Positions 7,183 to 58,049 of a stretch of DNA of 64,000 nucleotides are shown in pieces (position 1 is the first letter of the stretch; every line of letters begins with the position of its first letter). Below the pieces are notes generated by a model, which was given only the letters and a program-made list of their open reading frames with translations, was not told the origin of the DNA and did not search any database. The translations under genes and the position numbers were made by a program. The stretch is from Onthophagus taurus (lineage: Eukaryota; Arthropoda; Insecta; Coleoptera; Scarabaeidae): positions 10,106,001 to 10,170,000 of the forward strand of contig NC_091968.1 in assembly GCF_036711975.1 (NCBI RefSeq), in the 5' to 3' direction.

Positions 7183-7745
7183 CATATATGTCACTACATA
7201 TTGAAATATGCATTCAATATTACACAGGTCAGTGTACGTTAGCCGTCTAGTTAGGTCTATTAGGTCTAGTGTTAGTTCAACATAGTAACAGTGCTAGTGT
7301 AAAACTAGAACTAACACCATATCTAGAACTAGAATCATTCGGGTTTAGCCGTCTTTAGAGACGTGCGGCTAAACCCAAATGATTCTAGTTCTAGGTATGG
7401 AGTTAGTTCTACATAGTAACAGTGCTAGTGTAACACAGAAGTGTTAGTTCTAGTTTTACACTAGCACTGTCACTAGAAATAACATTCAGGTTTAGCCGTA
7501 CGTCTCTCAAGACGGGTAAACCGAATGTTTCTAGTTCTACGTCTAGTGTTAGTTCTAGTTTTAGTTCAATAAAAACGTGCAGCATAGTGATATTTTCTGC
7601 TAACTAGCGCTATCACCTACCAGCCGTCTTAAGAGAAGTACGGCTAAACGAAATGTTTCTAGTTCTAGGTCTAGTGTTACTTCTAGTATTAGTCTAGTTT
7701 TGTTTGTTATTCAGCGTTAAATTGTTGTATCTTTTAATTGAGCGA
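7183..7745. repeat. Palindrome cluster with CTAGTTCTAG-type simple motifs
   Basis: 7323-7394 is a near-perfect palindrome. Its arms carry CTAGAACTAGAATCATT and GGGTTTAGCCG, with a short GTCT/AGAC inner stem. Diverged versions lie at 7473-7534 and about 7618-7680. Between them are repeats of AGTGTTAGTTCTAG. No protein is encoded. It lies directly upstream of the gypsy LTR and probably formed the target. Confidence 0.8.
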
Positions 7746-8533
7746 TGTAACAAACCGCATTTTGGGATTCGAAAGCGATTAAAAAAAAATAATAAAACGC
7801 AATACAGGCAGAACTTTGTAATTTAATTACGAAGTTGCGTCTTGAGAACCGAGGGTCCAGACTAAATACTACGTAGGCGGTTCTGGCAGGAATGTGCCGA
7901 GGTGGCAGTTAGAGTAGATGGAGCAGGGAAGAAATGAAGAAAAAATCGGGGAGTCGGTTACGGGATTGGAATAGAAAAGCATCGGGCGAAACCGGGAAAT
8001 CAAAGTTTTTGTTGTGTTTTTAAAGTCGAAACGTGCGATTTGAACGTATAGCAATTTAGTTATAAAATTCGTTGAATTGGATTCTCTTTCTTCGATGAAT
8101 ATTTTACTTTAACAAACGGGTAAGCGTTATTAAAATCTTAAACTTCCGATTTCTCATTGAACCTGCTAACCACCTCGGCAAATTTCGTAATGATGTTGTT
8201 GAATAGCTTATGTCATGTAATTTTTACTTTTTAAAATCTTTGTCAGTTGTTTTTTTTTTTATATAATATAATACGTTCTTTTTCAAAAATAAAGCAAACT
8301 TATTCTTTAGCAGTGAAATTTCGTTTTCTTTCAATCTATTTTTATTCTTAATTTCAAATTACTGCCGTTCGCTTTCAAGTGAACGAATGCAGTGTGCCAA
8401 ACCCTAACTCAGTCATTGCTAGCTATCAAGAAAACGGTAGTGCGTGGACAGTTGGGTACGCGAGCCGCTCCGTGGACCTAGCTAGGAAACCCACTACGGG
8501 AAACGAGCAGTTCTCGAGAGCTAGTTTGTGACA
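7746..8533 (+). repeat. 5' LTR of the gypsy element
   Basis: 788 bp, TG...CA ends. It contains the polyadenylation-type signal AATAAA (near 8288) after an AT-rich block. It matches 16937-17724 along its whole length. Confidence 0.95.
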
Positions 8534-8781: not shown

Positions 8782-9897
8782 ATGAACGCCGATGATAACG
8801 TAGCAGAAATTCCGGGCGAAGCTGAAGGTTCTATTCTAACAACACCAATGATGGTTACACCGATTTCTTTAGGAATGTTAGCAGGAACGGTAGAATCTTT
8901 TTCAGGTCGAGAAAATGTTAAACTGTATTTTGAAAGGTTAGAGCAACGTGCGATCTTAGATAATTGGAATGAAACACAAATGCTTCATATTGTTAGGTAT
9001 CGATTGAGTGGAGAGGCTTATAAATTTTATAAGGCGGAAACAAACTTACAGAGTAATCAGGTCACATATGTAGAATTACGGGAAAAATTAATTAAAAAGT
9101 TTACCCCGCGAAAATTACCGGGAGAAGCACTAGGGAAATTAATGCGCGCGTTCCAAAAACACGATGAATCCGTGTCGTCTTACGTAACCAGTATAAAGTC
9201 TATCGCGAATGAGATTATCGAGGAGGACAAAGCGAAAGTAACAGCAGCAGAATTACCGGGAGTTATTATAAAAATTAATGAATTAGCACTAAGTCAATTT
9301 AAAGTGGGAATGAAACGTGAATTAAGTCAAATGGTAGGAACGTTACTTATGCGTGAAACGGATTTAACTCTAGATAAAGCGGAAGAGATCGCATCATTTG
9401 AAGAATTAAATCAGGCTACAAACCGAAATCGTCCAAATCGAATTAATATAGGAGCGGTGGATACGACTACTAGATTATGTTACAGATGCGGAAAGTCAGG
9501 TCATTTTGCGAAATTTTGTAATGCACAGACAACCGTGTTTAATTGTTATAATTGCGGAAAACCCGGTCATATTAGTAAACAATGTAGGTTACCTTCAAAT
9601 AAAATGCAACCGAACTACGACCAAAGGCGTGACCTCCCACGCCGTGTTAGTTTTCAAGAGGGTCATTCATCCGATAAGGTAAACAACCGCGACCGAAGAA
9701 ATTTTTATTACCAACAGCGAGATTATCAAAACGAACCGCGACGTAATGTAAACGATAACAATTATACGGGCCGACAATCGCCCCCGCGGGTTACTAGATC
9801 ACCGCAAATTCCCGCAAATAACAGGTACAATGAGACGAACTCTTTAAACGCATATCGTCCTGCGGTGAATACCCGAACCGCAGGAGACTCGAATTAA
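8782..9897 (+). CDS. gag: Gypsy gag (capsid and two zinc knuckles)
   Basis: 371 residues; forms the particle and packages the RNA. The retrotransposon gag (capsid) region is about residues 40-215, with the typical YRLSGEAYKFY and ELREKLIKKFTP segments. Two CCHC knuckles follow: CYRCGKSGHFAKFC (from 233) and CYNCGKPGHISKQC (from 255). The C-terminal tail is basic and rich in Asn and Arg. The ATG at 8782 is the first in frame after the 250-nt leader. The last 64 nt overlap the pol frame in the -1 phase, and the frameshift signal at 9843-9885 lies inside this overlap, so part of the product should continue into pol. No stops or frameshifts break gag. Confidence 0.93.
   Translation: MNADDNVAEIPGEAEGSILTTPMMVTPISLGMLAGTVESFSGRENVKLYFERLEQRAILDNWNETQMLHIVRYRLSGEAYKFYKAETNLQSNQVTYVELREKLIKKFTPRKLPGEALGKLMRAFQKHDESVSSYVTSIKSIANEIIEEDKAKVTAAELPGVIIKINELALSQFKVGMKRELSQMVGTLLMRETDLTLDKAEEIASFEELNQATNRNRPNRINIGAVDTTTRLCYRCGKSGHFAKFCNAQTTVFNCYNCGKPGHISKQCRLPSNKMQPNYDQRRDLPRRVSFQEGHSSDKVNNRDRRNFYYQQRDYQNEPRRNVNDNNYTGRQSPPRVTRSPQIPANNRYNETNSLNAYRPAVNTRTAGDSN
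9843..9885 (+). promoter_or_regulatory. -1 ribosomal frameshift signal (slippery heptamer plus stem-loop)
   Basis: TTTAAAC at 9843-9849 sits in the gag frame as T TTA AAC, the phase needed for -1 slippage. After 8 nt, TCCTGCGGT (9858-9866) pairs perfectly with ACCGCAGGA (9877-9885) around a 10-nt loop. pol is in the -1 frame relative to gag and is open from 9834. This fits the known architecture of retroviral -1 signals; function is inferred. Confidence 0.85.
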
Positions 9898-9965: not shown

Positions 9966-12900
9966 ATGAGACTCATTTTTGAAACACCTTTTTCTATTAA
10001 ATTGTTCAATAAAAACAAACCAATAACGATGTTAGTAGACACCGGTTCTCCTGTTACGATAATTAAACATTCTTGTGTAATTTCGGAAGCAATTAAACCT
10101 ATGTCAGGAGATTTTAGTATTTCGGGAATAACGGGACACGGAATTGACATGCTAGGTACGACTGAGTTAAATTTTTCATTGGGGAATGAATCGAATTTAG
10201 GAGATTTCTCGTGCTATGTATGTTTGGACAATTTGCCTTTAACCACAGATGGAGTATTGGGACGCGATTTTATGGAATTTCACAATGTAATTATTGATTT
10301 TAGTAAAGGTAGCCTAAATGTAGGAGGTATTGATGTTAGATTTTCAAGTATCATGAACGTCAATTTGGGGTCGCAGCGTATTGTGTCTACAGATTCCCTT
10401 GAATGTAGAGAATCCACCACATCAGGTTTGGGTGTAGGTCAGGTAGATAATTTGGAACTCGCGAATGATTATGTATCAGAATTATCAACGGAAATAAATT
10501 TAATCGAACCGCAAGTAACGAGGACGGAGTATCTAATAAAGAAACGTGAAGTCGAAGAAAAGTACGTAACCGAGGAGACGAATCAACGAACGAGGTTTAT
10601 GCCACTCGAGGTAAATGTTTTGGTAGAAGAGTTTGGGGAGTTAAGTTCAGATAGCAACGATGACTATGAAACCGGGTATCGCCGAATGATCGATGTAAAT
10701 GTGGACAGGGATTGTCACGATAAAAGAATAGAAGAAGAAGAAAAAAAAATAGAGAAATTAAAGACTAAAGAAAGTCATAGGGAGAGCCGAGAAGGCGAAA
10801 TTCAAGAAGACCCCAGCGGAAGTAGTGGATTAGTGACGCAGAAGTCACGAATTGTTGCAGAAAATAATGAGTTAAGGGAATGCGAAAATGAAGAAGAAAT
10901 TAAGGATGAAACTAATATGAAAGATACGAAAGAAAACGAAATAAACAATGATAAAAACTGTCAATGTAATCCTGTTATCACCGTTGAAGAAGATATCGTT
11001 GAACCGTTTACAGAGAAGGTGTTAGCGGTTGACGTGCGTAATAATAATAAAAAGAACGACATTGTAATTGAATCAAGTAAAACGCCCTTTCATCCAAATA
11101 TATTAATAGGAAGATGTGCTGTTCCAAGAGGGGAAAAACCACGAGTATTGGTTGCAAACATAGGAGAAGAATCAATAACGATCCCAAAGCATACAGAGAT
11201 AGCTAGAGCGTATAGTTGTATAATACCGAATAAGAAGGTTAATCCAGAAGTAAAAAGCGAGATGGTTGCAATGATAAGAGAAGACGGAGAGACATCAACA
11301 TTTTTGGAATCGATCTCATTGGCTCATCTATCAGAAACAGACAAAGAGAAAGTTGAAAAATTGTTATTGGATTATCGAGATATTTTCGACAATGGTGACG
11401 AAAGGTTTACGAAAACTCACAAGGTCAAACATCAAATTATTACTGAGAATGTACCACCAATTAGTAAACGTCCATATAGAGTACCAGTTCATCAACGAGA
11501 GTTCTTACAGGAAGAAATAGATAAGCTGTTAAAGAAAAATATTATTAAACCATCTCATTCACCCTGGTCGGCGCCGGTTGTAATCGTTAACCGGCAGATG
11601 TCAGACGGATCGATAAAACCCCGAGTATGTATAGATTACCGAGGACTCAACGCGGTAACTAAGAAAGATGTGTACCCGTTGCCGAATCTGCAAGAGACAG
11701 TAGATGTGTTAGGGAAGACTAATCTGTTTAGCGTGTTTGATGTAGCGTCGGCGTACCATCAAATAGAAGTGGAGAAGAATGACCGAGAAAAAACAGCTTT
11801 CTCCACGCCGTTCGGGCACTATGAGAGCAACCGAATGATGTTTGGGCTAGTAAATGCCCCCGCGACGTTTCAGCGCTTCATGAATTTTACATTTTCGGGA
11901 TTATTAGGTACTCATTGCCTCGTCTATTTAGATGATATAATAATTTTCAATGGAACGGGTGTCGACGATCATGTGAACAAACTACAAACTATTTTTGATA
12001 GAATCCGAGATGCAGGACTAAAACTTAAGATGGAGAAAAGCCAGATCGCGGTCCCAAAGGTGTCTTATCTTGGTCACATAATATCTGCCCAAGGCGTTCA
12101 ACCGGATCCGGGAAAAATCAACTCGATACAGAATTTCCCCGTTCCAAAAAACGTTAGGAATTGTAGAGAATTTTTAGGGCTGGTGGGATGGTATAGGAAA
12201 TTTATACCGGACTTTACCCGATTAGCGGCCCCAATTACGAAGTTAACGCGCAAAGATGTCGCGTTTAAATTCGAAAAAGAGCAATTGGAAGCGGTGGAAA
12301 GCTTAAAGGCCGCGATAACATCAGAATCGGTATTAATTTTCCCAGATTTCAATGAGCCTTTCATCTTGGCTACAGACGCGAGTAACACAGGATTAGGTGC
12401 TATACTTAGCCAGGTGAGAGAGGGAAATGAACGCCCTGTGGCTTTCGCTAGTAGAGGACTAAAGAAGGCTGAGCTAAACTATTCGACTACCGAAAAAGAG
12501 TGTCTTGCTGTCATATTTGGGATAAAGCAATTTCGGTGCTACTTATATGGACGCCGTTTCACTATCATAACAGACCACAGACCATTGAAATGGTTGATGA
12601 ATATCAAAGACCCGAGCTCGAGACTAGCACGATGGGCTTTAATGCTAATGGAGTATGACTTCGAGATTATCCACAGACCGGGCCGAAAGCATGGAAACGT
12701 GGATGCTCTCAGCCGAAACAGTATAGTTTCCCTAATCCGAAAGGATGAGAAAGATAAGTTATGCATTAATGAAGTAGAGGGAAATTTGTTTGATGCTCCC
12801 CAAGGTTGGGTATTAGCTCATTGCGTTTCGGCGGATTTTGCGATGGGAGCTGGTATTGCAAAGGAATTTAAAAAGCGATTTGGCTCCGTTGAAAAATTAA

Positions 12901-14912
12901 GATCCGAGGAGAAAGGAGTTGGTGACATAGTACCGCAAATAGCGGAGAAACGAAAAATATACCATTTAATTTCAAAGGACGAATACTACCATAAACCAAC
13001 GTACCACATGTTGAGACAGTGTCTAGAAACGTTACGGGAGGAAATGAATAAATCTGGGGAGAGATATTTGGCAATACCCAGAATAGGATGTGGTCTCGAT
13101 AAACTAAAGTGGAGCCTAGTTAAAGAAGAATTAAGAGAATGTTTTGAGGGAACGAATACCATGATAATGGTATATAAATTACCTTTCGTTAAAAATAAAA
13201 CACTATGTAAAATACAGGAAAATATAGCAACGCCAGTTTGGGATAAAAATGTTATTTTGAAAGAACAAGATAAGGACGAGTTTTGCATTGAAATACGGGA
13301 TTCGCTTTCATCAAACAAAGATCTTAGGGATAGTTATTTCATAGATAATGATAAGCTCTTATTTAAAACTGATGAGTTAGGAAAAGAAGTACTAGTGTTG
13401 CCGAAATCATTTGTGCAGAAGGCTTTGCATGATTACCACGATTTACCATTTGCAGGTCATGGCGGTCAAGCGAAAACATTAGCTTTACTTAAGGATAGGG
13501 TATTTTGGCCGTCTATGACACGTGATGTTAAAAAGTATTGTTCGAATTGTGAGTCATGCAATAGACGTAAAACTTCCCCCCATATGTCTAGAGCACCCTT
13601 GCAAAAATTTACAACTGTTCGAAAGCCATTCGAAAGAAGTTCAATGGACATAGTGGGTCCGTTACCAACAACATACAAAGGAAACAAGTATATACTTACG
13701 TTCCAGGACTATTTCACCAAATATTTAGAGGCAGTAGCCTTACCTGATCAGAAGGCTGATACTGTGGCTCGAGCTTTTGTAACGCAAATAGTAAGTCGCC
13801 ACGGTACTCCTCTGCAGTTGCTCACCGATCAGGGTACAAATTTTGTGTCGTCACTCATGAAGGAAATTTGTAAGCTATTAAATATCGACAAAATACAAAC
13901 CACACCGTATCATCCCGAGTGCAATGGTCTTATCGAGAGAAGTCATCGGGTGATCAAAGACGTACTATCTCACTATGTTAAAAAGGACCAAAGAACCTGG
14001 GATGAATGGTTACCCTATGTTCTTCTGGCGTACAGATCAACGGTGCATAGCAGTACGGGCTATACCCCCCACTTTTTGTTATACGGCAGGGAAATGGAAT
14101 TACCAGTGGATGTTTTTCTCCGACCCTCCAGGTGTAAGTACGACTGTGATGAGAACTATGTGACGGAATTGGCAGCGCGAATGAACCACGTGTATGAGAC
14201 GGTTTTTGAAAGTTTGCAGCTTGCCGCTCGAAGACAGGCTGAGTATTATAATAAAAGAAGTAAGCACAGAGATTTTTACGTAGGAGAGTTGGTACTCTTA
14301 AAAGACACATCTATAAAACCAGGTCTAAATAGAAAATTAGCCCAACCTTGGATAGGACCGTACATGATTACAAAAATTAAAGGACCAGAGAACTACGAAA
14401 TTACATCAGTAAACGGAAAGCTAAAATCTATTGTACATAGTAATAGATTGAAATCATTTCGAACTAATAAAGAATCAACTGCGAAAGAGTGTAAAAGCCT
14501 AGATTCGAATGTACACCTCGAAGAAATAAACGAAGACCGGTATGTTGAGCCACATATGCCGATAATCAGTTTACATACACCGGATCTGACTTTTCGAAAA
14601 AATACAGGAGTAACAGATTTACTAAATGAGACCCCCTGCCCAAAAATTAATATATGTCCGAGACGATTAATTCTAGAAGAGAGTAATGATACTAGTACAG
14701 CAGAAAATCTGGAAGGGAAAAATGAATGTATGAGTAAGGAGTTGTTGGAGTCAATAGCTGAACCTTCTGAAAACCCTTCAGAAATAGAAAGAGAACGTGA
14801 GGACGATAGCATTATTATTAAGGCACCAGAATTAATAGATGAACCCCTTGAAGAACCGTTGGCAATACGACGGGAGAGGAGAGCCATAAAACTTCCAGCT
14901 AGGTATAGGTAA
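9966..14912 (+). CDS. pol: Gypsy pol with embedded TARG1-like macro domain
   Basis: 1648 codons from the first ATG; probably made as a gag-pol fusion, the frame being open from 9834. Domains: aspartic protease with DTGS (Asp25); a Glu/Lys-rich linker (about 130-360); reverse transcriptase with YLDD at 654-657; RNase H with TDAS (Asp804) and ITDHRPLKWL; macro domain about 936-1073; integrase with HHCC zinc finger (about 1156-1197), catalytic Asp1228, Asp1288, Glu1324 (DD35E) and a GPY/F-type C-terminal module (WIGPYMI). The last 170 residues are acidic and unassigned. There are no internal stops. The macro domain is not a standard gypsy part; it has AHCVSADFAMGAGIAKEFKK, LISK (Lys1004) and PRIGCGLD (Asp1045). 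A long-lived pol frame without decay suggests recent activity. Confidence 0.95.
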   Translation: MRLIFETPFSIKLFNKNKPITMLVDTGSPVTIIKHSCVISEAIKPMSGDFSISGITGHGIDMLGTTELNFSLGNESNLGDFSCYVCLDNLPLTTDGVLGRDFMEFHNVIIDFSKGSLNVGGIDVRFSSIMNVNLGSQRIVSTDSLECRESTTSGLGVGQVDNLELANDYVSELSTEINLIEPQVTRTEYLIKKREVEEKYVTEETNQRTRFMPLEVNVLVEEFGELSSDSNDDYETGYRRMIDVNVDRDCHDKRIEEEEKKIEKLKTKESHRESREGEIQEDPSGSSGLVTQKSRIVAENNELRECENEEEIKDETNMKDTKENEINNDKNCQCNPVITVEEDIVEPFTEKVLAVDVRNNNKKNDIVIESSKTPFHPNILIGRCAVPRGEKPRVLVANIGEESITIPKHTEIARAYSCIIPNKKVNPEVKSEMVAMIREDGETSTFLESISLAHLSETDKEKVEKLLLDYRDIFDNGDERFTKTHKVKHQIITENVPPISKRPYRVPVHQREFLQEEIDKLLKKNIIKPSHSPWSAPVVIVNRQMSDGSIKPRVCIDYRGLNAVTKKDVYPLPNLQETVDVLGKTNLFSVFDVASAYHQIEVEKNDREKTAFSTPFGHYESNRMMFGLVNAPATFQRFMNFTFSGLLGTHCLVYLDDIIIFNGTGVDDHVNKLQTIFDRIRDAGLKLKMEKSQIAVPKVSYLGHIISAQGVQPDPGKINSIQNFPVPKNVRNCREFLGLVGWYRKFIPDFTRLAAPITKLTRKDVAFKFEKEQLEAVESLKAAITSESVLIFPDFNEPFILATDASNTGLGAILSQVREGNERPVAFASRGLKKAELNYSTTEKECLAVIFGIKQFRCYLYGRRFTIITDHRPLKWLMNIKDPSSRLARWALMLMEYDFEIIHRPGRKHGNVDALSRNSIVSLIRKDEKDKLCINEVEGNLFDAPQGWVLAHCVSADFAMGAGIAKEFKKRFGSVEKLRSEEKGVGDIVPQIAEKRKIYHLISKDEYYHKPTYHMLRQCLETLREEMNKSGERYLAIPRIGCGLDKLKWSLVKEELRECFEGTNTMIMVYKLPFVKNKTLCKIQENIATPVWDKNVILKEQDKDEFCIEIRDSLSSNKDLRDSYFIDNDKLLFKTDELGKEVLVLPKSFVQKALHDYHDLPFAGHGGQAKTLALLKDRVFWPSMTRDVKKYCSNCESCNRRKTSPHMSRAPLQKFTTVRKPFERSSMDIVGPLPTTYKGNKYILTFQDYFTKYLEAVALPDQKADTVARAFVTQIVSRHGTPLQLLTDQGTNFVSSLMKEICKLLNIDKIQTTPYHPECNGLIERSHRVIKDVLSHYVKKDQRTWDEWLPYVLLAYRSTVHSSTGYTPHFLLYGREMELPVDVFLRPSRCKYDCDENYVTELAARMNHVYETVFESLQLAARRQAEYYNKRSKHRDFYVGELVLLKDTSIKPGLNRKLAQPWIGPYMITKIKGPENYEITSVNGKLKSIVHSNRLKSFRTNKESTAKECKSLDSNVHLEEINEDRYVEPHMPIISLHTPDLTFRKNTGVTDLLNETPCPKINICPRRLILEESNDTSTAENLEGKNECMSKELLESIAEPSENPSEIEREREDDSIIIKAPELIDEPLEEPLAIRRERRAIKLPARYR
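12780..13185 (+). other. Macro domain (TARG1/OARD1-like ADP-ribose hydrolase) inside pol
   Basis: About 136 residues between RNase H and the integrase zinc finger. It starts GNLFDAPQGWVLAHC, with the Gly-rich ligand loop FAMGAGIAKEFKKRFG, then IYHLISKDEYYHKPTY and AIPRIGCGLDKLKW. The order and motifs match the TARG1 (OARD1) branch, which removes ADP-ribose from acidic residues. From memory, human TARG1 uses Lys84 and Asp125 (spacing 41). Here Lys1004 and Asp1045 have the same spacing. Activity is inferred, not shown. Confidence 0.9.
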
Positions 14913-16936
14913 AGTATAAGGTATACAGGTAAAAAAAAAAAAAGAAAAAAATAAATAAATAACTAATAAATAAATAAAAATATTAATATTAAAATAAGTA
15001 AATTAATAAGTTAAATACTAAAATTAAAAAGAAAATAAATTTATTTATTTTTTTTTTAAATAATAAGAAAAATATATAATTAATAGCTTTTATTATTGTC
15101 TATTTTGTTGTTGATTACTAAACACCGGAAAATCGGATTTTTGTTTTTGTTTGTTTCAGCGCTCTTAACTACTTTATTGGCGATTGGAGCCTACATAAAT
15201 ATAGGATTAACAATTTATTATCGCATACGATTGTAGCGCCCGTAGTGTTAATATTAGTCTCATATCGCTAAAAAAAAAAAAAAGTTGGAGATTGTTCACA
15301 AATAAGGTCCAATTATGTAGAAAACATGTTACAAGTGCAAATAGTCCAAAGAGCCCGGATTCACCGACAAATCGTATATAGAAACACATAAAAATCGCTT
15401 ATTATTGGCCCCGTTATCACCAACCACCGTTAGTTTGCTCGCTAAGAATGAAACGAGTTATGTCGGCCGTGCAATCGGAGAAGTCCTGTACATATTGAAA
15501 TGTGTACCAAAGAGAGTGCAAGTAAGAAAAACGTATACTTGTTACCATGAACTTCCTGTCTCTGATACGGATAACCGGTCCTATTTTGAGTCGCCAATGA
15601 CACATGTACTCCTGGACTATGCAGACCAGGTTGACCGCAACCTCATTAGTTCACCAATGTATCAGATTGAAAAGCCCTGGGTAGCCTTAACTCCACTGCA
15701 GGTATCCCAGACACCACCTGATGGACTTCTACCTTATGAAGATTCAGAAATCAAAATTTAGTACCATTATGAATTTGGGAGTGGCCGAAATTTATAACAA
15801 CGAAGACGTCAGACAAGCACAAGAACTAGTACAAGTCGGCTTGGAACGATCAGCTATAAACAATGTCATTATTAGAAAAATCCAGGGAAAGAAGACAGAA
15901 AAATAAGGACTGGATTCAACTATTTCATGCGGAAGAGTTGCGTAAATTTGTTAAGAGCACGTTATCGCACGAGTGATTGTTTTATTGTGTTTCGTAAAGG
16001 GACTCGCTAGCGTGATATTGAATGGCTACGCAATATTTAAAACCTTGGGATGAGGTATCGTCATCTTGGCCAGTTGTGGAAAAATTTTACGATGTGGCTT
16101 TTTAATCAGAGAAGGGGTGAGGATCTTGCTTCGCCAGAAACTCCGACTAACATAGTTCCTGAGGCAACCAATTCCACAAGCCCTGAAGTGATGGTTTCAA
16201 ATATATATTCTGAGGTACCGACCTCTCCAAGTTGGATGCGGAAATAAATGGTAACCAAGATTCAGAAAACTTCGTCTGTTACAGATCCTATTAAACCAAG
16301 AATACTTACTCCGAAATTGTCCTTCATTCAAAAAAATCCTGAAATATACGATTCCTATCATTTGTAAATAATCATTAAATAAAAAAAAAAAAAAAAAAAA
16401 AAACATTCTAAATAAATCAACAATGTCTTATCGTCGACACATAAATGGAGCCAGCTGAGAACATGTTTATTTTCCACCGAACAAATGTAGTAGCACCCGT
16501 CAGGTCGCCCCGAGATGTGATGACAGCTTCTCTACTTCGACTACTTGACTGTGCGTGCGTGGTAGTTCTTAAACGTTTTGGTGTGAAGGACTATGTTACA
16601 ACTTTTAAAATAATTTTTAATAAATTAAGTTTAAAATCGGTGAAAGACTCTTAAGAAAGTGACTAAAATGCATATGAAAAAAAAAAAAAAAAAAAAATTG
16701 ACTTTTTGTTTCAAAAGAATATCATTAAAAATGTGTTTTCGTAATTAAAATTATGTGAAAATTGGACTCTATGTTACTGAGAAGTGTTTAGATGTAGACT
16801 TTTTGTAACGATTGAGATTGTTGATTCTTAAGATTTCAAGTAGATATCGGAAATACTAGAATGCGGTTTGTATTGTTCATTTTGGTATCATAAATAAGGC
16901 TCTTAGGGGAGCCTTCTTTTAAAAAGGTGGGAGGGA
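14913..16936 (+). pseudogene. 3' region with broken envelope-like ORF
   Basis: After pol comes an A-rich stretch, then a decayed third ORF. An open piece (about 15345-15761, no ATG in it) contains TYTCYHELPVSD and a Pro-rich end. The frame then shifts, and the next piece (to 15906) contains NLGVAEIY and ERSAINN. A further open piece lies at 16050-16247. The motif style resembles the envelope glycoproteins seen in arthropod retroelements and chuvirus-like viruses, but this is recollection without alignment. No transmembrane helix or signal peptide survives in a single frame. The region is not functional as read. Confidence 0.45.
16921..16936 (+). promoter_or_regulatory. Polypurine tract
   Basis: AAAAAGGTGGGAGGGA lies immediately before the 3' LTR start (TGTAAC at 16937). 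This is the expected position for the plus-strand primer. Confidence 0.85.
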
Positions 16937-17724
16937 TGTAACAAACCGCATTTTGGGATTCGAAAGCGATTAAAAAAAAATAATAAAACGCAATACAGGC
17001 AGAACTTTGTAATTTAATTACGAAGTTGCGTCTTGAGAACCGAGGGTCCAGACTAAATACTACGTAGGCGGTTCTGGCAGGAATGTGCCGAGGTGGCAGT
17101 TAGAGTAGATGGAGCAGGGGAGAAATGAAGAAAAAATCGGGGAGTCGGTTACGGGATTGGAACAGAAAAGCATCGGGCGAAACCGGGAAATTAAAGTTTT
17201 TGTTGTGTTTTTAAATTCGAGTCGTGCGATTTGAACTTATAGCAATTTAGTTATAAAATTCGTTGAATTGGATTCTCTTTCTTCGATGAATATTTTACTT
17301 TAACAAACGGGTAAGCGTTATTAAAATCTTAAACTTCCGATTTCTCATTGAACCTGCTAACCACCTCGGCAAATTTCGTAATGATGTTGTTGAATAGCTT
17401 ATGTCATGTAATTTTTACTTTTTAAAACCTTTGTCAGTTGTTTTTTTTTATATATAATATAATACGTTCTTGTTCAAAAATAAAGCAAACTTATTCTTTA
17501 GCAGTGAAATTTCGTTTTCTTTCAATCTATTTTTATTCTTAATTTCAAATTACTGCCGTTTGCTTTCAAGTGAACGAATGCAGTGTGCCAAACCCTAACT
17601 CAGTCATTGCTAGCTATCAAGAAAACGGTAGTGCGTGGACAGTTGGGTACGCGAGCCGCTCCGTGGACCTAGCTAGGAAACCCACTACGGGAAACGAGAA
17701 GTTCTCGAGAGCTAGTTTGTGACA
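16937..17724 (+). repeat. 3' LTR of the gypsy element
   Basis: 788 bp, same boundaries as the 5' LTR. About a dozen substitutions and small poly-T shifts distinguish the two, an identity near 98.5% by eye. Confidence 0.95.
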
Positions 17725-18042
17725 GCTATAACGGATACTGCGTTCCTCGTATTGATTCGTTATATCAAGATTTTACTGTAATGTCAATTTATACTGATAT
17801 GAACAGATATATTTTTGTATATTGCATCTTAAGTGAAATTCACTGTATAAATAAAAACATAGAAATGTCAATTCTTCCAATGACGTCACAGGAAGGCCTT
17901 TGCGGGAGGATACGTTCATAACAACAGCGTTCATAGTGAGTTGGATAACCTTACGTGACCTTTGTAATCTTCGTAAAACTGGAATGCACCTAAGCTGGGT
18001 AAGTCTGTTGAAGAAGGTACTTCAACTGAACCGAACTTAACA
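17725..18042. other. Non-coding stretch right of the gypsy element
   Basis: No gene. 17885-17955 (CAATGACGTCAC, then GAGTTGGATAACC) is an inverted, diverged relative of 2918-2980 (GGTTATCCAACTT, then GTGACGTCATTGG). The outer nest therefore holds a second dispersed repeat family on both sides. Confidence 0.5.
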
Positions 18043-19779: not shown

Positions 19780-20505
19780 ATGAGTGATTTAATCGTCGAT
19801 TCTAACATAAGAGGATGGGTTTTTCTCCCAATCGTCGTTATAACATTCCTTGTGGGTATTTTGCGCCACTACATCTCGATACTTTTATCGTCTCAAAAAA
19901 AGGTTGAAATGCAACAACTTCAAGATAGCCAAATCTTACTTCGTTCGCGTATTTTACGCGAAAACGCCCGTTTCATCCCTCGATCGGCTTTCAATATGCG
20001 GCGGCAAGTCTTCAACAATCAAGATAGCGGTTATTTGACTCAAAAACGAGAAAGCCAAGCCCCTAATATGATGACGGATCCGAGTATGATGACCGATATG
20101 CTTAAAGGAAACATAACGAACGTTTTACCCATGATTATAATTGGAGGATGGATTAATTGGATGTTTTCGGGATTTATCACCACCAAAGTACCGTTTCCTT
20201 TAACGTTAAGATTTAAGCCTATGCTTCAAAGAGGTATTGAGTTGAATCATTTGGATGCTTCATGGGTTTCTTCGGCGTCTTGGTACTTTTTGAATGTATT
20301 TGGGTTGAGGAGTATTTATGCTTTGGTGTTGGGTGAAAATAACGCTGCTGATCAGAGTAAGCAAATGCAAGATCAAATGTCTGGAGCTGCTATGGCGATG
20401 CCTCCGGATCCCAAGGTGGCTTTTAAAGCCGAATGGGAAGCTTTAGAGATTGTCGATCATCAATGGGCATTAACTGATGTTGAAAATAATTTAATACAGA
20501 AGTAA
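19780..20505 (+). CDS. EMC3: ER membrane protein complex subunit 3
   Basis: 241 residues, single exon. EMC3 is a core, Oxa1-superfamily subunit of the ER membrane complex that inserts tail-anchored and multi-pass membrane proteins. Visible: an N-terminal transmembrane helix (about 12-33, [20 protein letters not shown]), a cytosolic helical segment with [20 protein letters not shown], the Met-rich cytosolic loop [15 protein letters not shown], and two further helices (about 115-135, [16 protein letters not shown]; about 165-185, [17 protein letters not shown]). The C-terminal [12 protein letters not shown] is a family signature. Length is near that of other insect EMC3 proteins. It lies just outside the transposon nest and just left of an intact hAT element. 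No damage is seen. Confidence 0.96.
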
Positions 20506-20849: not shown

Positions 20850-23488
20850 TAGGGTTGCCACCTTTTTGACAACGGAAAACCGGGCATTTAACGTTTTGCA
20901 TGCCTCAGAATTTTTGTTTTTTAAATTTAAATGCAAATTATCACCACCAAAATTAAAAAATTACGCAACTTAAAAAAAAAACTACGTTGTAAAAATAATT
21001 ACAATGGGATGTTAATATTTCTAGATAATATTTATTTTATGCCAATAAATGCAATAAAACATATATGTATTTAAAATGGTATTTCGAATTTGATTTTGTT
21101 GCTTTAATAAGGTCTTTTTTGTCCCTTATTAATGAATAAAATTCCGAACAAGAAAGCTGAATGTTCGAACGAATGCACAGTTCTGATTTTACCATTTCAA
21201 CAGATAATCTATTTCTGTCATCATTCCACAGTTGGTTCATCATACTGAATACTCTTTCTACATAAGCATTGCTACAGGGTATAGATAAAATGACACAAAT
21301 AATTCTTCTTAAAATTGGCGATTCTACTTTCTTGAAAAATTTACACCACTTGTCGGCGACAGATATATCTTCATCCATAAAAGATGGAGCTACTTTTTGT
21401 AGGAAACATAGTTCTTCATAAAGATTATCACCATCGGTGTCTTGAAATTCAATACCAATACGCGATGCAATTAAAATTATTTCATTTAATTCTGGAAAGT
21501 GCCCTCTCAAATTGAATGATCTAAACAATAAAAAGACATTGTTTTCAAAATCGAACCATTTTTCTAAATATTCTTGTGCTCTATTGTAGACCTGAACGGC
21601 TTCAGTTTGAAATTGTAATCGAAGGTTTTCTGAAAGCTTCGCTAGTGCTTGGTTGGTTTTGAATCCAAAAAATAAATCTTCCCTGCGCCTTTTTAACTTG
21701 CTTCTTAAATCGGACATAATATCGTATAAATCCGTAATAACTAAATTAGATGTTTCCAGCATTTTAATTGTCGATTGAAATGTGAACAGAATATGATGAA
21801 CAAAATAAATATAACATTCAGCAAAAGTTGGGTGTTCTGAGAGTTGATCTTCTTGATCTCCTATAAATTTCCATATAACACGGTCACAATTTTCATTTCC
21901 TTGTTGCAAAAAATAAGTTTTTATAGCGTTCCAATTTAGTAATAAACGGTTAACAGCCGCATAAAGGCTTAACCATCGCACTGGTATATGTCTCAACACT
22001 TGATGGTATTCTTCTTGAACAAATTGGGAGCACTCTTTGAGATTTTCCACATTTTTTGCGCTACAACTAAAAGTATTAAACACCTTTATTACCAAACATT
22101 CCACATCGAAACTCAATAATTTAAGACAATGTTTCGCTGCATTGTGAACTATGTGACAGTTACAATTAGCTTTGAGAATGTTTGGTTTAATTTCTGTAAG
22201 TTTTTGGTATACTGAACAATGTTTTCCGTAATTCACGGACGCATTATCTGCTCCAAATGCGGTTACATTAGCAATATCAAGTTGCAGTGCATTTAATATT
22301 GTATTTTTTATTGATTCAGAAGTTTCGTCTGCTTCTTCATAAAAATCAAGTAAGCAGTCTCGAACGCCTTCGTTGGGGTCAAAAAAACGTATCACCAAAG
22401 GAAAAAATTTCCTACTGCCTTTGTTGGAAGCGTCCGTAGCTATTGAAAATGGAAGATTTTCTTCTTTTAACTTCCGAATTATAACTTCCAACGAATAAGG
22501 CGCTAAAACATTGCGCGTAATTGCTTCCAGTTTTGTTCGCCCTAAATGTATTTTAGTAGCTATTGCTGAATCTCGGTAAATATGTCCGTCAAGTTTGTTA
22601 CCTAAAGTGAAATAACAGTAATAAAATATACATTACACACAAAAAAAGACATTATTTCAGCATTTCAGCATTATTTCAGCAAATTAAATTTTATTTACCA
22701 CAATCAGATGATAGATAACTAAGGCCATGTTTAACAGTATGATAAGTTTTCGATAATTCGGCTATAGCTACGGAATCCGAATCTTTTAATTCTTTAGAGG
22801 CAAAAAATTTTGTAATACTGCCCATCATACTGCTTTTTTCTAAATTTAAATGTTTTGTTGTAGCACCATGGGACTTTACGGCTTTAATTCCGTCATACTT
22901 TACGCTAAACGTTATTTTACACAGGGTACATTTCGCCATGTTACTATTGTTATCACTTGCCAACCACTTTTTGAAGTTGGGGTCGTTGAACCAATCTTTA
23001 TTGAATTGGCAGTTTCGTAACCTAATTTTCTTTTTAGGTGGTGTGTTTGGAATGTCGTCTTTATCTTTACTACCATCACTCATTTTTACGGACTTCAAAA
23101 ACTTTTTATACCAGAGGTACTATCACGTATCGCACGCAACCGCAAATATAATAGATTAACTAATTGTTAAGCTAACACAAAACGCGTACATCAAACTGTG
23201 TAAGTAAATCCCCACTGGGATTCCCCAGAAAAATAGGACACAATTTTTACGTACCGAAACAAGCTGCCATCTTGTAGTAAAGTATTGAAATTAAAATTAA
23301 TACCGCTAAGTGGGTAACCCAACAATAGATGGCCTGTTATTTGAGCATTTTTAAGTTTTCCCATCTGTGATATCGAACGTATCTGTTAATATGATAAGAA
23401 CCGGCCTTTTTAACATGTTGACCGGCACCCGGCCTGAGTAACAGAAAACCGGCTAAGCCGGTGGAAATCCGGCCAGGTGGCAACCCTA
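20850..23488 (-). mobile_element. Complete hAT transposon with 8-bp target duplication
   Basis: 2639 bp. Ends are TAGGGTTGCCACC on the left and its inverted copy GGTGGCAACCCTA on the right. The perfect duplication GTCCTTAA lies at 20842-20849 and 23489-23496. It contains one two-exon transposase gene on the minus strand with no stops or frameshifts. Perfect duplication plus an intact gene point to recent insertion and possible activity. Confidence 0.93.
21037..23098 (-). CDS. hAT transposase, two exons, intact
   Basis: Exon 1 is 23098-22699 and exon 2 is 22601-21037, joined across a 97-bp GT-AG intron (phase 1, Cys-Gly junction), giving 654 residues. N-terminal BED/TTF-like zinc finger: CTLCKITF then HGATTKHL. 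Catalytic core: first Asp in FSIATDASNKG, second in TAFGADNAS. Then CNCHIVHNA, RWLSLYAAVNRLL, and a C-terminal dimerisation region with NAYVERVFSMMNQLWNDDR, which holds the catalytic Glu. It cuts and pastes the surrounding element. The ATG at 23098 follows MKSVKMSDGSKDKD; the second Met is an alternative start. The family within hAT is not assigned. Confidence 0.92.
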
Positions 23489-28545: not shown

Positions 28546-29390
28546 TTTAGATATGTGGATGATATCTTTGGTATATGGGAAGGAAATCTTAGCACCTTGG
28601 ACGAATTTCATAAATACCTAAACCAACTACATAATAAATTACAGTTTACCATCGAAATAGAAAATAATCACGTTTTAAATTTTTTAGATCTAACACTTAA
28701 TAATAATATAGAAAATAAGATTAATTTTAACATTTATAGGCAAATTCTTCTATAGCCACAATAATCCCATACGACTCGAATCATCCCATATCACAAAAAT
28801 TGTCTAGCTTCCGATTTTTCATTGAAAGAATTTTTAACTACCCTCTTTCACAAGAAAATAAGATCTCTGAACTTAATTACATATTTGAATTGGCGAAAAA
28901 TAACAAATTTCCCACAAATATAATTAATAAAATAATACATAAAGTTAAATTAAAACAAGATCCTTTGTTTTCTAAGATTCAAAATTCCAATATTCATAAA
29001 CCTATACCCTTTAACTCTATTACAGCTGCAGCTAAAAAAATATTTTTGAAATATAACATTAATCTAGCATTTTCCAATCACACTACTCTAAATAAATTAC
29101 TATCTAATTACCATCTCAACAGTTATAACATAAATAATGAAAGTGATGTTTATTTGATTAATTGTTTTAATTGCGATAACATTTACATAGGAGAAACTGG
29201 CCGAAAGTTGGAATGTAGAATAACAGAACATAAAAATAAAAGTAATTCTAACATTTATAAACACAGAAACGAATCAGGTCGCAATATAGAATATAGTAAC
29301 GTTAAACTTCTACACAAATGCAGCAAAGGTTTTAAATTAGACCTTTTAGAGGCTTATGAAATTAATAAATATAAAAAGAAAAATTGATGT
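28546..29390 (+). pseudogene. Penelope-like element: RT end plus GIY-YIG
   Basis: Plus strand. The 5' end starts inside the RT at the catalytic box (MWMDDIFGIWEG in place of YVDD), followed by FTIEIENNHVLNFLDLTL. One frameshift near 28740 separates this from the next frame, which carries SSFRFFIERIF, a helical linker, and the GIY-YIG domain VYLINCFNCDNIYIGETGR with ECRITEHKNK. It ends at a truncated LINE. This is a different family from the 4.9-kb copy (AT-rich, low identity). It is 5'-truncated and not functional as read. Confidence 0.85.
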
Positions 29391-42200: not shown

Positions 42201-43967
42201 CCTCTACGAGTAATCGTAAAACAAATATCAAATTCGTATTTGTCATGCTCGAAAACATCTAACTACCAAATTTTATGTTAATAGTACAAAAACCTTCAAA
42301 ATTATCAAGAAATTTCGAAATAAAAATTTAACTTTCAACACCCTGTGTATTAAAAACCACTGACATTTGTATAAGACATGTTAGGTTAAATCGTCATATT
42401 TTGGTGTCTACTGTCTCCGGTATTTGGATTTCCCATTCTCTCTGACTCACCCTGTATAAGTATAATATAAATATTTTCTATGATGGTAACGAAATGTTCG
42501 TGTAAAAATAAAATTATCCGATTAAAAGTCAAGCTCTTGTGTATTTATCCCCGAAAAAATTTTACCTTTTATAAGAGTCGTTTCACTTATCCAGAGACAC
42601 ACTGTATATAATTTTTAGGAGAGAAATCTATTGCTGGAATCTAAGGCTAACTTATCACCAGTTAATTAATTTAATTCTAATTATTATTTAAATATTACCT
42701 GAATTGGTTCAATTAAAGCCATAACTGGTTTTAACCCCGGTAAAATACATTGAACGTATTCTTTTTGAGTACAATCTTGAGCGATATCAAAAATACTTGG
42801 TAAAACAAACGGAACCATCGCCGGTTGTGTTAAATCCCGTATTAAACACGGTAAAACTCTCTGTACTTGAACTCGATGTGGTAATTTCTTCAAAGCTTCC
42901 GGTAACCCTTTAAAAAATTGGGATCGTTGCAAATTATCCCATTGCAATAATGAATCAAGATAATTTAAAGTTTTCACTCCAACATCCTCAAAATATGGCA
43001 CTTTAATAAATTGATGAGCATCCGGTCGCAAATCAGGCGTAACATTCATCATTAATTTAGCGTATTCACGCAGATCTTCAGGAATATTTTGAAGTTTACT
43101 CATCGATAAGTTATGTAACATTTGTAATCTTGATTTAAATTGTTGTAATGACTTAACACATTGAAAAGAATCTTCTGATCTTGAATGTAGCGTATAAATC
43201 AACATTCCCAATGAAAAAATATCACTTGATGTTGAATGTGATTGAGCCGAAATGATTTCTGGAGCTGTATAACTTAAACAAGGTTGAGCTATGCTAGGTA
43301 ATGTAGGGCTGTATTCAATGAAGGGATAAAAAGGTGGTGAATTGGGCAAGCTTGTATTCATCACACAAAAATCGAATCCAAAAATTTTCCATGCTCCTTG
43401 TTGATTTATTATTATAGTTTCTGGGCAAATGTTTTTATGTAATAACTTAACGTCGTTATGTAAGAAAGCTAAACCTTCCCCTATTTGTAATAAACCATAT
43501 TTTATTTCGATATCATAAAGCTTATAATCATTCAAATTTGTTGGTTGTGGCATGTTTAAAGTTTGTCCCAATATATTTGCTAAACTTGCAAAAACGGGTT
43601 CGGTTGCAAATGCTAAACTTTCTCTGCTTTCTTCTAAAGGGTGTTGTACTATTAAAATTTGTGGGTGTCTTATTTTTGTTAATTGAGTTATCCCTCGTTT
43701 TAGTGATTCCAAAATTATATCCCGATCGGTTTTATTGTACTTCTCCAATTGCCTTTTTTCAAAAACAAATATTGAAGCTTCTTGTTTCGTCGATCTTTTA
43801 GTACCCTTATAAATTTTCCATAAAAGACCTGGACCTCCGGATGCTATGTGACTTGTCGCGTCGAATTCACGCGTTACCGGATTTCCGGGGAGTACACTCG
43901 ATAATTGCGACACCGTGCTGCTTACCGAGCTACTTACATGCGAATAAATCTTGTTAAAAACTTCCAT
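36212..43967 (-). CDS. SCYL2: SCY1-like protein 2 pseudokinase (SCYL2), two coding exons
   Basis: Clathrin-coat and AP2-associated pseudokinase working in endosome-Golgi traffic. Exon 1 is 43967-42699 (423 codons) with donor CAG|GTAATA. A 5233-bp intron (42698-37466) follows. Exon 2 is 37465-36212, entering with ATTTTACTT (Ile-Leu-Leu), so LIEPIQ-ILLLMLQRMELLL is continuous. Total 840 residues, in family range. The kinase-like domain (about 30-320) lacks the catalytic Lys (IFVFEK in place of VAIK), has HKN for HRD and GFD for DFG. HEAT-like repeats follow (about 330-600), then a Gln/Asn/Ser-rich tail with NPLTPFG, ending DDIMDLLS, a likely clathrin-box-like end. Head to head with ADCK1. The intron is full of transposons, but both splice sites look good. 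Confidence 0.95.
37466..38348. other. SCYL2 intron, proximal part
   Basis: AT-rich intron DNA. Short repeat-like strings (AATTATCGTTTTTCCATCG near 37612) but no supported gene. Confidence 0.4.
38349..40060 (-). pseudogene. Decayed transposon gene of the DUF7869-type family, inside the SCYL2 intron
   Basis: Minus-strand pieces in several frames form one degenerate gene. N-terminal Cys-rich part (40049-39723: CRLTCTYKCSSLI and NDFWKKILSW). Next IRVCKLFFMNTLSVSEKFVYNAL (39750-39650). Then NLQKCLPTPFLTNSESFYVR and KLWTLNYTIHD (39260-39060). Last open part (39026-38349): TIWTDSCAGQNRN and LRGHTHMEVDCQHSIIERAKK. The D-S-C-A-G-Q-N and G-H-x-H-M-E-x-D blocks look like the catalytic core of a family I recall as annotated DUF7869 in arthropods. 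At least three frame breaks. Class of mobile element uncertain. Confidence 0.55.
40789..41103. repeat. Palindromic MITE in the SCYL2 intron
   Basis: About 315 bp folding on itself. The left arm starts GTGTCAGATAAAAAACGCCC with CAAGCTATAACTCTGTCATT; the right arm is its inverse. Arms are roughly 150 bp, about 85% alike by eye. No gene. Confidence 0.8.
41262..42457. mobile_element. Inverted-repeat element in the SCYL2 intron
   Basis: Arms 41262-41530 and 42185-42457 are inverted copies of about 265 bp. Shared strings include AGAATGGGAAATCC, TCCGGTATT-like text, AATTATCAAGAAATTTCGAA and TAGCGCCCTCTACGAG. The 650-bp centre has no recognisable gene. Non-autonomous. Confidence 0.8.
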
Positions 43968-55543: not shown

Positions 55544-56937
55544 TCATTCTTCTGATTGATATCTCACATTCTTCTCATCCTCTGATATATTTTCACTGTG
55601 TTGATTTTTACTTTTATCCATTTTCAAATGATCTACATGCATAAATCTAGTTCCATCATCAAATTCCATCATGTAAGTTCTATAACTCTTCCTTTCTATT
55701 ATTTTTCCTGCCCTCCAATGTCCCAATCTTCCGCCCAAATTAATAAAAGCGAACACTTTATCATTTATATGAAATGCCGCTTGTCTCCTCTTCATCATCA
55801 TTGCCTTTTCTTCATCTTTAACAGCATGTGGATGAATTAATGTAAGGAGTGTTCTTGGAAAACAAGTTCTGTAGGCTTGCGTCCATTTACAGTATTTGGC
55901 ATGTTTCTATGTTTTAAAAGAAAATTATTCAATAGTAGTTGTAGAGATTTTCTACGTTGTCTTTGTTCATTTTCCTTAATTGTTTTGCCAAATTTTTCTT
56001 AACTGTTGCTACATTTCTTTCTGCTAACCCATTAGATTGAGGGTGGTATGGAGGAGAATGTGTTAACAATACGGTATATTGTTAACTTACAAAATTTGTT
56101 AAATTCTGATGATCCAAATGGTGGTCCATTATCTCTAACTATTTGCTGTGGCAACCCAACAGTGGCAAAAATTGATCTTAGCGTAATTATTAATTCCTCC
56201 GCCGTTGTATTTTTAATTACTTTTACTTCCAACCACTTACTGAATCTATCCACCAGCAACACGAAATATCTCCCACACTTCTGAAAAAAATCTAAGTGCA
56301 CTCTCTCAAAACATGTGTTTGACTTTGGCCAAGGTACTATAGTCGTTGTTGATGGTTTGCCATGGGTAAATTTGCAAACATCACATTTATTGCAATACTG
56401 CTCTATATCTTCATCCATCAGAGGCCACCATAAATTATTTCTTGCCAACATTTTCATTCTTACCATGCCAATATGTTGATCATGGAGGAGTTCCAAAATT
56501 CTCATTCTCAATTGGTATTGAATCACAACTCGATTGCCAAGTAGAATACAGTTCTCTTCGATAGACAATTCATTTTGTTTCCTGAAATAAGGCTTAATAT
56601 TGTCATTTTCAACTTTCATAGGCCATCCATTTTGAAGATATTCTTTTATTTGACATAATGTAGTGTCTTGATTTGTGTTACAAGCGATATCTTTTGCTGT
56701 AATTGGGAAATGTGTATCCAGAATATTTATATCAACTTCTTCGATAAGTTCCTTGTTAATGAGCGGCAACTTTGATAGACAATCAGCGTTTCCTATTTCT
56801 TTTCCTCTTTTATATAAGATCTTATAATTGTATCCTGACAAGATAATGGCCCATCTCTGTAATCTTTGAGATACATGAATAGGTAAACCATTCTTTTCTC
56901 CAAACAATATCTTTAGCGGTTGATGATCACTAATCAA
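55544..56937 (-). pseudogene. Gypsy relic: RNase H end and integrase
   Basis: From 56937: MISDHQPLKILFGEKNG (RNase H end), GNADCLSKLP, then the integrase zinc finger HDQHIGMVRMKM...CNKCDVC, core HLDFFQKC (first Asp), VRDNGPPFGS (second Asp). The frame breaks near 56080, and a separate piece at 55801-55544 (NDKVFAFINLGGRLGHWRAG) is the C-terminal GPY/F-like module. The third catalytic residue region is in other frames with stops. Continuous in order with the RT at 57705. Confidence 0.85.
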
Positions 56938-56973
56938 TTCAAATGGTCTTCCATAAAGGTATTTATGACATTT

Positions 56974-58049
56974 TTATACTGTAAAGATGATTGCCAATGC
57001 CTCCTTTTGAAATTGAGCGTAGTTCCGCTCAGTATTGGACAATGTTCTAGAAACAAACATTACTGGTCTCTCCACATCTTCAACAATTTGGCTCAATACT
57101 CCCCCAACTCCTGTTTTAGATGCATCGCAAGTAATGCGTGTAGGATATTTAGGATTAAAATAATCACGTGTAGCATTGGACTTTACTAGATGTTTACTTT
57201 TGTCAAATGCTTTCTGACATTCTTTACTGCAGTGAAAAGGATTAACCTTTCGCTCTAGATCATATAGTGGTTGCAATAGAGATGAAGCGTTTGGAATAAA
57301 CTTATGGTAATAGTTTAAAAATCCCAAATAAGAGCGTAACTCAGTCAAATTTGTGGGGGCAGGTGCTTGCATTAACGATTCTATTTTATTTTCTACAGGG
57401 TGAATACCATTAGCATCCATTTTGTAACCCAGGAACTCAACCGACAATTTATTGAATTGACTCTTTTCATAATTGATGATTACATTATAATTCTCAAGTT
57501 GTTTGCACACGGCATCTACATTTTTCTTCAATTCATCTGCTAATTCATCTCCACCTGCTACGGTAACATCATCTATATAGCATGCGGTCATTGGTATATC
57601 TTTCAAAATCTGGTCCATAATGGATTTAAAAATTCTTAGTGCTGAAGTGACACCAAATGGTAGTCGATTATATTCAAACAATCCAAGGTGGGTATTAATT
57701 GTCAAATATTTCTTACAAGTAGGTTGAACTTTTAATTGTAAATAGGCATTTTTTAAATCGATAATAGTGAAATGCTAACCTCCAGCCATCGCATTAATCA
57801 CGTCCTCCAGTAAGGGTAATGGATAATGGTCTTTCTTCACATTAGGATTCAAGGTCTTCTTAAAATCGACACAAAGACGAATTTTCTTCTCTTCATTATT
57901 TGTGGATTTCTTCTCAACAATAACAATCGGACAATCTCGCTGTGACGTACTGGGCTTATGATATTTTCCTTGACCAACCTCTTTATTTCCTTTTCAATCA
58001 AGTCTCTCTGTAATATAGGAACTGAATAGGCTTTATGGAATACAGGCAA
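56974..58049 (-). pseudogene. Gypsy relic: reverse transcriptase and RNase H start
   Basis: N-terminal part (58049-57849) with FHKAYSVPILQRDLIEKEIK. Main part (57705-56974) with FEYNRLPFGVTSAL, the catalytic CYIDDVTVAG, EFLGYKMDANGIHP, LRSYLGFLNYYHKFIPNASS and RNase H ITCDASKTGVGGVLSQ. Frame breaks near 57775 and between 57850 and 57900 separate the pieces. Same element as the neighbouring fragments. Confidence 0.88.

Follow-up and report, generated by a model that had tools for sequence, protein, structure and literature searches.

Why should the polyprotein of a retrotransposon contain a macro domain? The question is posed by a Ty3/gypsy long terminal repeat (LTR) retrotransposon on the + strand of a 64,000-nucleotide stretch of the Onthophagus taurus (Coleoptera; Scarabaeidae) genome (NCBI RefSeq assembly GCF_036711975.1, contig NC_091968.1, positions 10,106,001 to 10,170,000 of the forward strand; henceforth the window), whose pol frame carries such a domain between RNase H and the integrase zinc finger. 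From its homology, fold, catalytic residues, spread and selection, all of which were computed, we infer catalysis, packaging, a substrate and a restraint of the element by ADP-ribosylation, and propose that, on balance, the domain is an active hydrolase borne by Gag-Pol that serves the element's own replication complex.

The domain is near certain to be a macro domain of the TARG1/OARD1 type. Its best sequence match in the PDB is human TARG1 (E 8.7e-34), followed by the DarG macrodomain (4e-7), and TARG1 outranks both DarG and viral macro domains in sequence as well as in fold; a closest match to the viral forms (the MacroD-type of RNA viruses) was not found for the window domain. The isolated domain reaches 25.2 bits against the Pfam Macro model (PF01661; cut-off 22), and a 500-residue piece containing it 21.7, marginally short of that threshold. 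Profile search and structure prediction both returned a macro domain, with no non-macro family scoring better, and chance resemblance to the fold is ruled out by the PDB sequence matches and the structure alignment. Because residue n of the predicted structure aligns to TARG1 residue n+8, Lys1004 and Asp1045 occupy the positions of TARG1 Lys84 and Asp125. The ligand loop (MGAGIA), LISK and PRIGCGLD motifs and the lysine-aspartate spacing of 41, as in Lys84-Asp125, were already part of the original prediction and are borne out by the codon positions and by the alignment of the model with TARG1. The predicted extent, 12780..13185, is nearly the same as the homologous stretch of 12765-13181. Based on the conservation of these residues we propose that the domain is likely to catalyze ADP-ribosyl hydrolysis.

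The assignment of the element to Ty3/gypsy rests on its LTRs, its gag and the protease, reverse transcriptase (RT), RNase H, integrase order of Pol. Pfam searches on three separate pieces gave the order RVP, RVT_1, RT_RNaseH, Macro, Integrase_H2C2, rve and Integrase_p58_C, which agrees with the placement originally claimed, as does the uninterrupted frame of 1648 codons. The features of the element are as follows:

7746..8533, + strand: 5' LTR (TG...CA), within a BLAST repeat block that begins at 7740 (7740-8533)
8782..9897, + strand: gag, 371 codons, with CCHC zinc knuckles (open reading frame list, Pfam; Retrotrans_gag under its cut-off)
9843..9885, + strand: probable -1 frameshift signal (TTTAAAC at 9843-9849, 8-nt spacer, 9-bp hairpin)
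9966..14912, + strand: pol counted from the first ATG, 1648 codons; the stop-free frame begins at 9834
10011..10277, + strand: aspartic protease (RVP, Pfam)
11616..12035, + strand: reverse transcriptase (RVT_1 match 11616-12002, ending where the searched piece ends; mapping piece 11583-12035)
12345..12656, + strand: RNase H (RT_RNaseH, Pfam E 4.9e-42)
12765..13181, + strand: TARG1/OARD1-type macro domain (Pfam, PDB sequence and fold comparison)
12975..12977, + strand: Lys1004 codon, TARG1 Lys84 position
13098..13100, + strand: Asp1045 codon, TARG1 Asp125 position
13191..13385, + strand: linker from the macro domain to the integrase zinc finger, not macro-like by profile
13401..13577, + strand: integrase H2C2 zinc finger (Pfam, two adjoining pieces)
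13623..13916, + strand: integrase catalytic core (rve, Pfam)
14355..14453, + strand: integrase C-terminal domain (Integrase_p58_C, Pfam)
15405..15761, + strand: envelope-like viral fusion glycoprotein fragment (Pfam PF24664, Monjiviricetes_fusion, E 3e-25)
16937..17724, + strand: 3' LTR with a purine-rich tract just upstream (BLAST block 16931-17724)

The two LTRs differ at 13 of 794 aligned nt, with zero gaps (98.4% identity). An exact 4-bp target-site duplication was not found at their flanks, GCGA (7742-7745) and GCTA (17725-17728) sharing three of four bases, a mismatch that may reflect mutation or recombination of the window copy. The fragment at 15405-15761 derives from a gene related to the glycoproteins of negative-strand RNA viruses that is broken in this copy; no intact envelope gene, as would be expected of an errantivirus-like gypsy element, was found between pol and the 3' LTR, the longest stop-free stretch in 14913-16935 being 138 codons. 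The gag and pol frames overlap by 64 nt (9834-9897), and TTTAAAC inside the overlap is phased as a -1 slippery site requires; the hairpin behind it folds at -20.9 kcal/mol (z -3.4), with one of 200 shuffles equally stable. Because of this probable signal, the macro domain would be delivered within Gag-Pol.

A genome search with the macro domain yielded at least 74 matches, among them 22 full-length ones at 98-100% identity, the window copy included; a local chimera or an assembly artefact is thereby ruled out. The matches lie stop-free in open frames of 1692 codons in 16 of the 22, a number likewise returned by a search with the integrase core, and one copy has a stop inside the domain; lysine and aspartate are kept in all 22. 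The window family is thus recent and its domain was copied along with the element. Within these 22 rows there are 3 synonymous, 4 nonsynonymous and 1 stop variant, too little variation to measure selection.

Between families, the macro domain is under purifying selection and is less tightly constrained than the integrase. The proportions of synonymous (pS) and nonsynonymous (pN) differences are 0.77 and 0.19 between the window macro and that of the related locus L009, and 0.88 and 0.36 between the window and L011, against 0.89 and 0.07 for the integrase core of window and L009. The nonsynonymous-to-synonymous ratio (dN/dS) of the macro is 0.21 for L010-L011 and 0.23-0.27 for window-L020 and L011-L018, the latter two with dS of at least 2 and near saturation; the pairs L018-L019 and L020-L023 have too few changes to judge.

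Mapping the window Pol pieces onto 32 fetched loci of the same genome (L009-L040) revealed that the domain occupies several positions. At site i it follows RNase H with the linker behind it (L011-L016, L020, L022-L024, L040), L014 being without linker and zinc finger and L024 and L040 having the macro in a shifted frame. In L009 and L039 the macro, the linker and integrase were matched and RNase H was not; the same holds for L038, which has RT in addition, and in L010 the macro follows RNase H with the linker reduced to a stub; the segment corresponding to 13191..13385 is also present behind the macro of L009, L011 and L020. At site ii, directly before H2C2, lies the domain of L021. At site iii it sits between protease and RT (L018, L019, L026, L027, the last without a protease match), and L028 has protease plus a cut macro. 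Of nine genome matches at 45% identity that resemble L019, L019 alone was mapped; at L017 and L025 Pol pieces are scarce or absent. The RNase H-integrase placement of the original prediction therefore holds for the window family but is too narrow for gypsy elements at large, in which several Pol positions and decayed forms occur.

Lysine and aspartate are both present in 19 of 23 further intact-type loci of this genome, some of which are otherwise broken, the exceptions being L023 (Asn for Asp), L027 (Asn for Lys), L028 (truncated) and L039 (a gap at Lys). These observations bear on the suggestion that the domain is a reader, which binds ADP-ribosylated chromatin or DNA ends and thereby tethers the integration complex. 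Chromodomains tether integration for other gypsy elements; in the window family the macro lies next to integrase, and at site ii it stands immediately before the zinc finger. However, the retention of the catalytic pair in nearly all intact-type copies, the existence of decayed forms lacking the ligand loop that binding would need, and the protease-RT position of L018/L019 and of the database protein P0002, far from integrase, make such a role unlikely.

Comparable fusions occur in other species. Searching the protein databases with a 1000-residue query, its words drawn from the macro alone, returned 38 proteins out of 195 candidates, and an L019 piece returned 15 out of 107. Such a search finds a relative only if it has exact words in common with the query, and the lineages listed are therefore a minimum. 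Site-i polyproteins are P0010 and P0014 (both Athalia rosae), P0022, P0162 and P0167, the P0014 record being without an H2C2 match and that of P0010 starting within RNase H; site-ii polyproteins are P0161, P0163, P0164 and P0165, and site iii is represented by P0002. In P0013, P0015, P0020 and P0166 the macro follows integrase. Planococcus P0036/P0037 also carry the domain, the P0037 form with an RT domain, and P0009 and P0016 resemble ORF1 proteins of non-LTR elements, both readings being taken from precomputed Pfam annotation and inspection alone. Both catalytic residues are found in 18 of 19 database retroelement proteins, the exception, P0160 of Onthophagus taurus, being cut short. With the domain shared by related families and a sawfly element, besides the 22 full-length copies, the absence of other copies that would have refuted the original prediction is contradicted. 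Separately, TARG1-type macro domains also occur in P0005, P0008, P0019 and P0168, together with XPG nuclease, glycosyltransferase-90 or TBP domains in precomputed Pfam annotation, or with none named (P0168).

We then considered the source of the domain. The host OARD1 gene (L037) has no Pol pieces nearby and has a GT-AG intron within its macro domain; over the larger exon it is 60% identical to Tribolium OARD1. It groups with beetle OARD1 in three macro trees (81/96, 86/80, 95/90), with the window macro, to which it is 39% identical, outside; constraining the two together gave a borderline p of 0.06 (52-row tree). The original claim that the element captured a host deMARylating enzyme stands insofar as the domain is of the TARG1 type with both catalytic residues, but direct capture from the present host gene is not supported at 39% identity, nor does the p of 0.06 for a joint grouping reject it. 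Tribolium itself has an OARD1-like protein of 806 residues (P0011) in which the stretch 561-646 weakly matches the host macro exon (28%, E 7e-6); additional macro-like segments in a decayed state may therefore be present in beetle OARD1.

Trees of RT, RNase H and integrase unite the window family with L018, the site-ii elements and the Athalia elements in a single clade (90/86; 100/98; 93/97), to which the tree with 93/97 adds L067-L070. The elements with the macro behind integrase lie outside this clade, as do P0002 and P0167. A single clade of site-i elements is rejected (p 5e-4 and 2e-6 in two such trees), as is one of all macro-bearing elements (p 3e-5; at least 12 state changes over 28 rows); the hits on these trees were selected for carrying the domain, and the gains and losses on them are biased. 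The macro trees (59 rows and 147 columns; 52 rows in an earlier version) have long branches and many unsupported deep forks, and their single-capture results depend on sampling. In the 59-row tree the window, L009, L010 and L011 macros group together (99/91), P0002 and P0015 join aphid OARD1 (96/89), P0167 joins deuterostome OARD1 (98/81), and P0013 and P0166 (98/98) lie with P0020 near beetle OARD1, weakly (83/53). Since the L018 macro groups with the site-ii macros (99/94), its protease-RT domain seems to be a moved site-ii domain. Some placements go against a simple picture: Athalia P0010 and P0022 fall among insect OARD1s (98/91), P0014 falls with mealybug P0037 (99/85, long branches), and P0002 stood with the window family in a smaller tree.

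In the 52-row tree a single origin was rejected with p 0.008 for 17 rows from retroelements, 0.016 for 14 from gypsy elements and 0.034 for 9 of the RNase H-integrase position. For 7 rows from elements of the window's own genome it was not rejected (p 0.088), nor was a single clade of 15 insect OARD1 rows (p 0.17). In the 59-row tree a single origin of 21 gypsy rows was rejected (p 0.024), and that of 24 retroelement rows, at p 0.057, stayed above the 0.05 threshold. One capture for all gypsy macros is thus moderately rejected by these alignments. A single origin of 15 rows of the window RT clade (p 0.30), or of 11 among them (p 0.18), was not rejected, so that within this clade a domain captured once may have moved between the several positions.

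Further loci (L029-L034, L035, L036) have a domain before H2C2 that is 18-28% identical to the window macro. The ligand-loop glycine, the His-Cys pair and the lysine (replaced by Gly) are all gone in L029-L034, an aspartate being kept; L036 has lost the loop and His-Cys and keeps Lys and Asp at aligned places, and L035 has an unaligned first half with Lys and Asp at aligned places. Their common loss is that of the ligand loop and, where aligned, of the His-Cys pair. Homology to the intact type is evident from the L029 segment, 31% identical to the L019-type macro (E 1e-13; 99.5% and E 4e-23 in profile comparison). In hhalign comparisons with the macro, for which integrase, RNase H and RT control pieces gave 0.1-1.5%, L071, a decayed-type match, reached 95%, and, among L067-L070, fetched as elements without a macro match, L068 reached 67% and L067 a weak 10%; a second segment of P0022 reached 89% (90.6% as a three-row alignment), with none of 40 shuffles attaining any of these values. 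By the same method no remnant was detectable in L069 or L070, each equalled by 1 of 40 shuffles, and in P0162 a second segment, equalled by 17 of 40, did not stand out. Athalia P0010 has two macro-like segments, whose structure model was poor (pLDDT 40.6) and not used. The first RT/RNase H/integrase tree gives decayed L029/L030 as the sister group of intact L021 (98/96), and once macro-free rows are added L021 groups with L030, L069 and L070 (83/94); this grouping of an intact element with decayed and macro-free ones suggests decay in place.

The decayed forms lend themselves to another explanation, in which the macro fold is a structural spacer or an N-terminal module of integrase and any catalysis is incidental. 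L029-L036 and L071 indeed retain a recognizable macro without ligand loop before integrase, in frames of up to 1338 codons with the match stop-free, and for these families the explanation is probably true, with L035 and L036 still showing Lys and Asp. As an account of the domain in general it is quite unlikely, for the loop and catalytic residues are conserved in the window family and its relatives, and the macro sits at differing places in otherwise similar Pols. Taking trees and decayed forms together, we tentatively propose, as a possibility somewhat short of even, that retroelements captured TARG1-type hydrolases several times (at least in the window clade, in the P0002/P0015 and P0167 types and in a lineage close to beetle OARD1, as well as in non-LTR elements), that the domain moved within Pol, and that in a large gypsy clade it decayed in place to an unannotated pseudo-macro in front of integrase; ADP-ribosylation would in that case be a general barrier to retroelements.

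As to function, we envisage that the macro domain, made as part of Gag-Pol via -1 frameshifting, would lie inside the particle adjoining RNase H and integrase. Host transferases would attach ADP-ribose to the replication complex and the domain would remove it, the substrates being side chains of integrase or Gag, or the nascent single-stranded cDNA and its ends; clean cDNA ends would be needed for plus-strand synthesis and strand transfer, and integrase would have to be unmodified. An eraser carried by Gag-Pol fits an LTR element, because such an element makes single-stranded cDNA in the particle and needs clean ends and unmodified integrase. ADP-ribose on Asp/Glu, or on thymidine of single-stranded DNA, is cleaved off by TARG1, with Lys84 being required (PMC8501950). 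In parp-1 null Drosophila, eight mobile elements were differentially expressed, five of them upwards; another ten were upregulated with weak statistics, nine of which belonged to the gypsy superfamily, an effect that the study's authors say may be indirect (PMC7712786). PARP is thus a plausible restrainer of mobile elements, the step itself not being addressed by these data, and the role against PARP-type defence or repair signaling put forward in the original prediction is still an inference.

Several observations weigh against this proposal. The Drosophila data concern transcript levels, not integration. Among the 150 best integrase-core matches scored of 1917 candidates in the genome, 51 have an intact-type macro within 4 kb (broken copies included), 15 a decayed one and 84 neither; with so many relatives having a decayed or undetected macro, the activity is not generally required. 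The macro also evolves faster than the integrase core (67% versus 87% amino-acid identity between window and L009). Finally, the placement of P0002 depends on sampling, moving from the window family (75/89) in a smaller tree to aphid OARD1 with 59 rows. The hydrolase might instead act in trans on cellular ADP-ribose signaling (nucleic-acid ends, O-acyl-ADP-ribose or the DNA-damage response) and loosen host repair or silencing. The TARG1 family does act on several substrates (PMC8501950), but fusion within Pol restricts dose and location, and we regard this as very unlikely.

Elsewhere, the window holds a second, distant gypsy pol remnant (56353-57885, - strand) with RT, RNase H and H2C2 pieces, in which no macro was detected, and a hAT transposase dimerization domain (Pfam; 21037-22491, - strand). 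Further Pfam matches are to ThiF plus rhodanese (1242-2399), EMC3/TMCO1-like (19780-20505), GIY-YIG (28800-29387), protein kinase (42684-43967) and cytochrome P450 (60520-61194).

In RNA viruses, macro domains counter host ADP-ribosylation. If our proposal is true, this conflict between eraser and ADP-ribosylation extends to retroelements and the germ line, and a restraint of reverse transcription or integration by ADP-ribosylation becomes testable. If the several captures are also true, ADP-ribosylation would be a general, previously unrecognized barrier to retroelements in insects and beyond. The decayed versions would account for the unnamed stretch between RNase H and integrase in some gypsy polyproteins.

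Among known systems, human TARG1/OARD1 (C6orf130; PDB 4J5Q/R/S) is a free-standing cellular protein, whereas the window macro is a domain of a retrotransposon polyprotein, and the DarG macrodomain, 21-26% identical, belongs to a bacterial antitoxin. Non-primate lentiviruses carry a dUTPase between RNase H and integrase, an accessory enzyme at the same Pol position whose fold and reaction are unrelated to those of the macro domain. Among the open-licence papers listed, no description of a macro domain in a gypsy element was found. Teleost endogenous retroviruses likewise acquired macro-domain genes (Basta et al. 2009, via PMC4977317); those elements are described as epsilon-like with additional open reading frames, unlike the Ty3/gypsy fusion inside Pol. 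Bdelloid retroelements share enzymatic ORF3s, so that there too one enzyme type occurs in unrelated retroelement classes, but the enzymes named are an esterase, an exonuclease and a dUTPase, not an ADP-ribosylhydrolase (PMC5408684). As far as we have seen, the capture of an accessory enzyme by a retroelement is therefore known, and what is new is the type of enzyme, its fusion inside a gypsy Pol, its several positions and its decayed module.
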